A stretch of 64,000 bases of DNA. Source: Plicaturopsis crispa FD-325 SS-3. Taxonomy: Eukaryota > Basidiomycota > Agaricomycetes > Amylocorticiales > Amylocorticiaceae. Position 1 is the first letter of the stretch, and each line of letters begins with the position of its first letter. Under the pieces are notes generated by a model, which searched no databases, was not told the origin of the DNA, and was given only the letters and a program-made list of their open reading frames with translations. The stretch spans positions 1,461,849 through 1,525,848 of the forward strand of contig KN832556.1 of the NCBI GenBank assembly GCA_000827205.1, in the 5' to 3' direction. Made by a program: the position numbers and the translations under genes. Shown here one piece after another: positions 17,294 through 19,496 of the stretch.

Positions 17294-17696
17294 ATGGCCC
17301 CTTTGATACGTTCTTCGTTATTCCGACCAGTCTTCCGTCCCAGTTTGTATCGCAGCTTGCCCCCGGTGGCATCTACGAGACGATGGATGCAGAACCCCGT
17401 GCGGGAGGAATTTGTGAGTGCAACCCTCAAATCAGCCATGCATGACACTTGACGCGCACCGTGATACAGTATAACAATATTGCCAGTGCTGAGGGCGTAG
17501 GGCGCTGCGGACCCGTCACGTCTCTTGGAGACACTCCGCTCACTCTGCGTCTGACGAGGCCAAAGTCGATCGGCGGCACCGGCACGGGGCAGACGCCAGA
17601 ACAGCTGCTCGCGATGGGCTTCTCATGTGCGTTTTGTCCCTCACGCGAAGACGCCAGACGTCTGCTAATTCTGCTTTACAGCGTGTTTCTTACATG

Positions 17697-17700
17697 CCAT
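17697..17700. repeat. Target-site duplication, left copy (CCAT)
   Basis: CCAT directly before the 5' LTR, repeated at 19181-19184 directly after the 3' LTR. Most LTR elements make 5-bp duplications; only 4 bp match here. Confidence 0.75.
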
Positions 17701-17901
17701 TGTAGGGTTCGGTAAGCGTCTACACGAGGATTCCGTGCGGCGCGACGCGTCTTGCTTTGTCTCGCAGCCTATATAGTCCTTGCTGTATTTCTTTGTATCT
17801 TTAGCTCACTCCTTGACCTCAAGAGGTACGACGCAAGTATCGTTTCCATTATAAGGCCCTACTCGAGAGGCTACATTGACCACAGAATACGTCCCCCTAC
17901 A
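17701..17901 (+). repeat. 5' LTR, 201 bp
   Basis: Starts TGTAGGG and ends CCCTACA (7-bp terminal inverted repeat). It contains a TATATAG stretch that could be a promoter and shows no difference from the 3' copy on direct reading. Confidence 0.85.
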
Positions 17902-18118
17902 CATTGGAGCCCAACGCTCGGTGAACACATAAGTCCTTCACCCTGCCTTTCAACACCACTCCACCACATCTACATGCCACTCACCCACCCAACTTTTCAC
18001 CCGTATCCGCGTTAGCCAAGTTTCTCGTTTCGCCCGTCTCGTCTCGTTCGCAATCGTCTCGTCTCGCCTCGTCTCGCGTCGCGTCAAGTTCTCGTTTTCC
18101 CCATCGCGCCTTTCTCGT

Positions 18119-18937
18119 ATGTTTTCCATTCGTATCGCCTATCGTTTTCGTCGGCCTTTTCGGTCGTCCAGGATTAGGAGGAGGAGAGAAGAAGGAGACG
18201 GTTGGCAGCCGCAGGGTGTAGGAGAGGTGCCGCGCGCAAGAGAGGAGTTAGTGGAGGTTGTCGAGGTCCGTCGAGGCGATCATACGCAGCGCATATGGTT
18301 TTCGCGTCGCACGTTACGCGCCATCTTCGAACGCGCAAAGAACGGAGCTCCGCTCGATGTCTGTAACGAGACTAGCACGCGCGCTATCGAGCGACTACTC
18401 GGCGAGCGCTATATTCACGCCTTTCACGCCGCCTTGACGCGCCTCAACCACGGATTTGCACCGTCCGCATCGTTCCCCGCCCACGAACTCTTTCAGAACT
18501 TACCGGAGCGTCTCGACGCCGCCGTCCAACAAGCCCGCGCCGATGCGTTGTACCGCTACGAAGAGCTCGTTGCCGCGACGTACCAGTCCATCCCGCTCGG
18601 CTTACGCGCTAAGCTTGTCGCTCAAGATTCGGAGGTATCGCGCTTTTCGCTCGACGGCTCGCCCGCAGGCTTGGAATATGATATTCGCACAGACGCCTCG
18701 TTCCACGCTACTCCGCCGCCAACACTTCCCAGTCTTCCGCCGCCGCTTCCGAGCCTCTCGCAACCACGTTCGACGTCTACGCCATCGACGCACGTACCCC
18801 TCACATCATTCTTTGTGCCGTCTTTGTTGCCGCCGCCGCCGCGTTCATCTTTGTCGCATTGTTCGCTATCACCATCGTCCTTCGCGCCCGTCACGCTCCC
18901 GAATCGACCAGGTCTTTTGCAGTCAGATTTAGGTTAG
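18119..18937 (+). CDS. Unrecognised 272-residue ORF carried by the LTR element
   Basis: Open from an ATG 217 bp after the 5' LTR to a stop 42 bp before the 3' LTR, nearly filling the element. The first 75 residues are strongly basic (RRRREEGDGWQPQ; many Arg). The centre (about 80-190) is helical with aromatic and charged residues (IWFSRRTLRAIFERAKNG, ALYRYEELVAATYQS). The last 80 residues are Ser/Pro-rich. No zinc knuckle, protease, polymerase or integrase motif is visible. A basic N-terminus plus a helical core could suit a nucleic-acid-binding or capsid-like protein, but that is speculation. An intact frame of this length in a short element argues it is, or recently was, under selection. 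Confidence 0.5.
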   Translation: MFSIRIAYRFRRPFRSSRIRRRREEGDGWQPQGVGEVPRAREELVEVVEVRRGDHTQRIWFSRRTLRAIFERAKNGAPLDVCNETSTRAIERLLGERYIHAFHAALTRLNHGFAPSASFPAHELFQNLPERLDAAVQQARADALYRYEELVAATYQSIPLGLRAKLVAQDSEVSRFSLDGSPAGLEYDIRTDASFHATPPPTLPSLPPPLPSLSQPRSTSTPSTHVPLTSFFVPSLLPPPPRSSLSHCSLSPSSFAPVTLPNRPGLLQSDLG

Positions 18938-18979
18938 AGGATCAACCAGGGATGGTTGATATTCAAAGTGGGGAGCGGA

Positions 18980-19180
18980 TGTAGGGTTCGGTAAGCGTCT
19001 ACACGAGGATTCCGTGCGGCGCGACGCGTCTTGCTTTGTCTCGCAGCCTATATAGTCCTTGCTGTATTTCTTTGTATCTTTAGCTCACTCCTTGACCTCA
19101 AGAGGTACGACGCAAGTATCGTTTCCATTATAAGGCCCTACTCGAGAGGCTACATTGACCACAGAATACGTCCCCCTACA
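18980..19180 (+). repeat. 3' LTR, 201 bp
   Basis: Direct repeat of 17701-17901, same ends and no visible difference, preceded by a purine-rich tract and followed by the CCAT duplication. Confidence 0.85.
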
Positions 19181-19496
19181 CCATCCAGCTCGCCGCGTCG
19201 AAGGCAGGCAAGAACGACCTCGGGCACGATACGCGTGTGCACACGAATGTCATCTTCGGTCCACCCGATACTGGTTTCGGCCCAGGGGATGGCTTCACGC
19301 TGTCGGTTGAAGTGACTGTGGAGGGCGTCGACGACGACGATGTTATCCTAGCCGCGCACGATGTAAGTGCTTCCTATGTACCTTTGAAAAACCGACCTAA
19401 CACAGATGTTCGGTTCGTTCCCAGCTATCGCCGTTCAGCAAAGCCCTAACAGATGGAATCCCTATCAAGATACGGAAGATGGAAAGCTCATCGTAA

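Follow-up and report, generated by a model that had tools for sequence, protein, structure and literature searches.

The 1480-bp element at positions 17701–19180 of the window (the 64,000-nucleotide stretch analysed here, C3:1461849–1525848 in our contig numbering) is, in our view, probably a satellite of a Ty3/gypsy-type element: a non-autonomous LTR retrotransposon of ~1.5 kb that carries one gene, kept under selection and serving the element itself. Non-autonomous LTR elements are usually regarded as passengers, and according to the available text of a 2015 paper on TRIMs, none that could mobilize these elements had been found (PMC4558846). In the 33-Mb genome studied here, a small element whose gene appears to be under selection occurs together with a candidate partner that has a near-identical 3′ boundary. 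If confirmed, this arrangement would make it directly testable whether retrotransposon parasites of parasites evolve genes of their own.

The element is complete, and all the hallmarks of an LTR retrotransposon are present: paired TG...CA LTRs, a target-site duplication, a primer binding site (PBS) and a polypurine tract (PPT). As an earlier note on this DNA had described, the 5′ LTR (17701–17901) and the 3′ LTR (18980–19180) are identical at 201 of 201 positions, their ends carry TGTAGGG/CCCTACA, and the insertion is flanked on both sides by CCAT (17697–17700 and 19181–19184). A TATA-like box, TATATA, is found at position 70 of the 5′ LTR. The leader that follows (17902–18118) contains TCTCG-type repeats and is readable in all four copies of the element that have two LTRs. 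It includes the PBS, TGGAGCCCAACGC (17905–17917), which starts 3 bases past the 5′ LTR, is identical in the four copies and forms a perfect 13-nt complement to the 3′ end of tRNA-Lys(CUU), pairing with the last 10 bases of the tRNA plus CCA. Next comes the ORF of 272 codons (18119–18937, ATG to TAG, the stop included in the coordinates), which is on the plus strand, like all the features given here. It is intact and fills three quarters of the interior, as the earlier note had claimed, and it lies inside a stop-free frame of 334 codons.

The PPT region, AAAGTGGGGAGCGGA (18965–18979), ends at the 3′ LTR, and immediately 5′ of it stands a perfect 8-bp stem-loop, ATCAACCA/TGGTTGAT (18941–18960; fold z −3.3), whose folding was matched by 1 of 200 shuffled sequences. 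The 41 bases preceding the 3′ LTR are identical in the four copies. The stem-loop, beside the purine tract, occurs in all four small copies as well as in the larger gypsy-type element described below, and is a possible shared recognition signal. A second open frame, of 100 codons, overlaps the ORF at the 3′ end (18682–18981); by eye, it resembles a hydrophobic segment.

The genome searched comprised 33.2 Mb in 49 contigs. With the LTR as the query, we obtained at least 11 matches (such counts are lower bounds), which correspond to four two-LTR elements and three single LTRs (86, 80 and 78%). The copy at C5:94348–95846 is 91% identical to the window copy over its full length and has an intact ORF of 273 codons. 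The copies on C17 and C21 match the window copy at both ends, and their middles read N; an intact ORF can thus be read in two of the four two-LTR copies (window and C5). DNA searches had hinted that C17 and C21 share just their ends with the window copy, which raised the idea of gene capture by cargo swapping, and this idea was dropped because N runs lie between the shared ends. Duplications of 4 bp were read at five of the seven family sites: CCAT on C3, ATAC on C5, ACAG on C17, GAGC on C21 and GTGG at the single LTR on C4. At the C19 site, three of the four bases are duplicated, and the C1 site is ambiguous. The family includes two subfamilies that have the same short form and LTRs 12% apart. 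Over the interior, the window copy aligns colinearly with the C5 copy and shows no indel longer than 9 nt, indicating that the short form predates the split between these two copies.

The element had been described earlier as very young. In relative terms this holds; in absolute terms, 0 differences in 201 bases give a bound of no better than less than about 7 My at 1.05 × 10⁻⁹ per site per year, a rate applied in the available text of two fungal papers (PMC5689174, PMC4905642). The LTR pairs are identical in the C3, C5 and C17 copies, and the C21 pair differs by one 1-base indel. When the four LTR pairs are pooled, with no substitution over 813 bp and that one indel, the bound falls to less than about 1.8 My.

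From where could such an element obtain its enzymes? A Pfam search of the long ORF, the frame covered, matched 0 families at E ≤ 10, so that no integrase, protease, reverse transcriptase or RNase H was recognized there, in line with the earlier note. We searched the genome with a 25-nt pattern of the purine tract/LTR boundary, allowing up to 3 mismatches, and used the backward pattern as a control. The pattern was matched at five places, each time without a mismatch; the backward control gave 0 matches. Four of these places are the small copies. The fifth, C3:1143892–1143916 (minus strand), belongs to an element of ~9 kb on the same contig as the window. Across the purine tract/LTR boundary, 55 of 57 bases match between the larger element and the window element, and the match begins in the larger element just past the stop codon of a Pol-like frame. 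The second LTR of the larger element is at C3:1151849–1152307 (459 aligned bases, 99.8%), with the LTR starts about 8.4 kb apart; the LTR is 625 bp long if its end is set by a 4-bp ATTG duplication.

The readable interior of the larger element consists of its last few hundred bases, and its Gag and PBS regions read N. The 55-aa tail before its stop codon has no Pfam match by itself. In the genome search, this tail matched the C-terminal part of one C5 frame (39%, E 1.7e-4), and comparison of the two sequences alone gave 21 of 56 identical residues (38%, E 2e-9). Domains of the RVT_1, RNase H and Integrase_H2C2 families are present in the C5 frame, and this homology assigns the larger element to the Ty3/gypsy type. 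Judging from these sequences, the larger element probably supplies the enzymes to the small one. Against this partnership weigh the short readable interior of the larger element and the LTRs of the two elements, which are alike over about their first nine bases only. The reliance on a partner element suggested earlier is thus plausible, as an enzyme-bearing candidate with the same 3′ signals is present in the same genome. With respect to other partners, nine places with RVT_2 were considered as copia candidates and rejected, none having the boundary or PBS motif within 1.5 kb of the match. These motifs were also absent around 30 of the 42 RVT_1 matches in a scan to 1.5 kb beyond each, a distance that leaves room for partners whose ends lie further out.

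The 3′ signals held in common with the larger gypsy-type element would also be consistent with an ordinary gypsy copy that has undergone internal deletion and become a dead-end relic. On the other hand, the family has several young copies whose ends are intact and whose duplications differ, which represent multiple independent insertions, the LTRs of the larger and small elements agree over about the first nine bases only, and the same short form is found in both subfamilies despite their 12% LTR divergence. Consequently, we regard a relic as highly improbable.

A tRNA-like 3′ end complementary to TGGAGCCCAACGC is present, with the same sequence, at five sites in the genome. A tRNA-shaped pattern with up to one mismatch gave 78 matches compared with 46 for the backward control; seven matches were without mismatch, and five of these seven are one sequence, which belongs to the tRNA-Lys family. 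One of the five sites (L079), taken at full length, was identified by ARAGORN as tRNA-Lys(ctt) with a 26-nt intron; an intron in this tRNA gene speaks for a eukaryotic host. It is likely, from this complementarity, that the mature 3′ end of tRNA-Lys(CUU) is the primer of the element. Three additional sites complementary to the PBS, outside the element family, were not called tRNA genes.

Could the ORF be fortuitous, a product of a stop-poor interior? In Markov models of the same interior (2000 simulations each), an ATG ORF of 272 codons arose in 0.2% of the order-1 and 1.8% of the order-2 sequences. With a chance probability of 0.002–0.018, the length of the ORF alone is modest evidence. The absence of stops is weak evidence as well (P of no stop 0.31 by permutation), codon usage barely prefers the ORF frame (0.095 vs. 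0.088 for the best other frame), and a second frame in the same region also runs without a stop for 164 codons. In two of the four copies (C3 and C5), another ATG lies upstream of the ORF start. In the last 35 codons there is no silent excess between the window and C5 copies (3 of 13 substitutions silent, 3.7 expected), and the C17 copy has a 1-base insertion in this stretch relative to the other three copies. If the ORF were fortuitous, the constraint signal described next would reflect sampling, or selection in an autonomous ancestor.

The substitutions between the window and C5 copies argue against a fortuitous ORF. In codons 1–128 (18119–18502), they follow a purifying-selection pattern: 19 of 35 are silent compared with 9.6 expected (p 0.0002, 5000 permutations), in a single pairwise comparison for which the division into codons 1–128 and the last 35 codons was chosen after the positions of the differences had been seen. 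The excess is specific to the frame, as the same stretch read in frames +1 and +2 shows none (p 0.74 and 0.98). Over the whole ORF, 22 of 48 substitutions are silent vs. 14.4 expected (p 0.012, 1000 permutations), and dN/dS is 0.40 (NG86), 0.45 (YN00) or 0.32 (LWL85). Similarly, the ORF has one indel, of 3 nt, compared with five in 412 bases of the 5′ LTR and leader. Because the two copies share the short layout, this constraint postdates the origin of the short form, unless recombination with an autonomous relative renewed the ORF again and again. On this substitution pattern, the ORF seems to have been preserved by natural selection, and we consider a fortuitous ORF unlikely. The earlier note had expected a living family to show several copies with shared LTRs and a constrained ORF, and it had named a lone copy or an unconstrained frame as grounds against its reading. 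A multi-copy family with frame-specific constraint is what we found, so neither of these grounds applies.

The ORF may also have a mosaic history. In codons 129–237 (18503–18829), there are zero substitutions between the window and C5 copies; these 327 bases are fully identical, compared with about 91% elsewhere. Given 48 substitutions, the probability of this would be about 2e-11 for a block fixed in advance, and the block was defined post hoc. Since chance is unlikely to produce such identity, recombination, gene conversion or an assembly effect must have joined the copies. Furthermore, the C5 copy resembles the C17 copy in part of its 3′ end, and its LTR belongs to another subfamily. A mosaic of this kind fits template switching between co-packaged RNAs.

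What the ORF encodes was addressed by several searches. In Pfam, nothing matched the protein at E ≤ 10. The two matches in PDB (E 1 and 1.7) and the one in NCBIfam, to an IS6 transposase model (E 0.12; 12.1 bits vs. a cut-off of 125), were judged to be chance. The structure model was of low confidence (mean pLDDT 42.6). The 272 residues include two cysteines, with no CCHC zinc knuckle and no C..C spacing. A protein search of the readable genome (E ≤ 10) gave 3 matches, all within the element family, and no relative was confirmed among 9 pattern matches in viral contigs or among 57 in bacterial and archaeal contigs. The lack of a recognized retroelement domain, which is negative evidence, would be consistent with a captured fragment of a host gene carried as cargo. 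Such an origin appears improbable to us, as the search of the same genome at E ≤ 10 returned no host parent, and there is no Pfam or convincing PDB relative.

A much stronger contender, to which we give somewhat less than even weight, is that the ORF is a diverged or truncated Gag, inherited from an autonomous Ty3/gypsy ancestor that lost pol, and that the element is a fungal TR-GAG. For the movement of the element, this is a sub-case of the satellite explanation; it is a true rival only with regard to the identity of the protein. The position and size of the ORF would fit a Gag remnant, as would the layout, in which a single long ORF follows the PBS. The bases in common with the larger element, moreover, start right after its Pol-like stop codon. 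In addition, fungal gag is described in the available text of one study as variable and difficult to recognize with profiles (PMC3248453). On the other hand, Pfam gave no match even at E ≤ 10, the protein has no CCHC knuckle, and the search of the readable genome with the same threshold found no similar frame outside the family. The distinct family proposed earlier is borne out in part: it is multi-copy with shared LTRs, but it may belong with TR-GAG-like elements, since the protein could be a Gag that has diverged or been truncated.

How might the satellite element move? The TATA-bearing LTR would direct a Pol II transcript of the small element, from which the ORF would be translated. The RNA would be packaged in the particles of the larger element, where tRNA-Lys(CUU) would prime the first strand and the purine tract, beside the stem-loop common to both elements, would prime the second. 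The integrase of the partner would then insert the small element, yielding the 4-bp duplication. The ORF protein would most likely act on the RNA that encodes it, at packaging or at entry into the particle, and may be a diverged Gag. In general, elements mobilized entirely in trans would not be expected to retain genes. Constraint on the gene of a trans-mobilized element requires a benefit in cis, and the ORF protein would therefore act in cis. We infer, as the simplest account, that the gene benefits its own RNA, most likely when this is packaged or enters the particle. A bolder proposal is that the satellite encodes a private, non-Gag protein, maintained by selection while the two subfamilies diverged, with which its own RNA gains packaging or entry into particles. 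This we regard as rather doubtful; if true, the element would be the retrotransposon counterpart of a satellite virus that depends on a helper and has a gene of its own.

The insertion also appears, from the flanking frames, to interrupt a gene for organic hydroperoxide resistance (Ohr). Upstream of the element, the frame at 17464–17625 matches the Ohr family TIGR03561 with E 3.9e-8 over profile positions 2–51 of 134 (33.7 bits vs. a cut-off of 88.85), and its best PDB match is an Ohr protein (E 6.7e-6); Pfam gave no match at E ≤ 1. The downstream frame (19183–19362) has no match alone and was assigned to the same gene by eye. By eye, too, the insertion is in an exon, near what we take to be the expected active-site cysteine motif of Ohr. 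The interrupted copy is probably a fresh null allele.

Among known systems, the closest working analogue is the plant TR-GAG, which likewise has two LTRs, a single ORF and no enzymes, and of which one Arabidopsis copy has been shown to transpose, according to the available text (PMC8704663). The TR-GAG ORF is described there as a recognizable full Gag of 562 aa, similar to that of an autonomous ATCOPIA63 member. Here, in contrast, no Gag similarity was found, the host appears to be a fungus and the partner is of the gypsy type, with a Gag region that reads N. The candidate for a related autonomous element is this Ty3/gypsy-type element, which has its 3′ boundary in common with the small one and whose coding region is mostly N.

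Similarly, the element resembles TRIM/SMART elements in being a short non-autonomous LTR element with a PBS and a PPT. As far as the available texts define them, TRIMs are smaller than 1 kb and encode no mobilization proteins (PMC10886601) or, more loosely, are smaller than 4 kb with most or all of the coding sequence absent (PMC4558846). At 1480 bp, the element exceeds the strict size limit and falls within the loose one, whereas its constrained 272-codon ORF, filling most of the interior, departs from both with respect to coding. The TRIMs of Boletales are classed as non-coding in the available part of one study (PMC5689174). Helenus (TRIMp3) of rust fungi is, like the present element, a small non-autonomous LTR element of Basidiomycota; it is described, in the text available, as having tRNA-like LTRs and, in fungi, 5-bp duplications and a likely dependence on copia (PMC10886601). 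In contrast, the element described here has a TATA-like box, 4-bp duplications and a gypsy-type partner, and a search of window positions 17601–19300 for tRNA-derived sequence gave no Rfam match at E ≤ 1. With LARDs and the Dasheng–RIRE2 pair, it shares the combination of a non-autonomous element and a candidate autonomous partner, but LARDs are given as over 4 kb (PMC4558846) and are grouped with TRIMs as non-coding (PMC5689174) in the parts of these sources available.

Judged by title and the opening of the abstract, none of the literature matches listed, with Repbase and most subscription papers outside the coverage, described a fungal LTR element that is non-autonomous and has a conserved ORF for something other than an enzyme. 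The element does not call for a new category; it is set apart from the known kinds by the combination of its constrained ORF, its 4-bp duplications and its gypsy-type partner.
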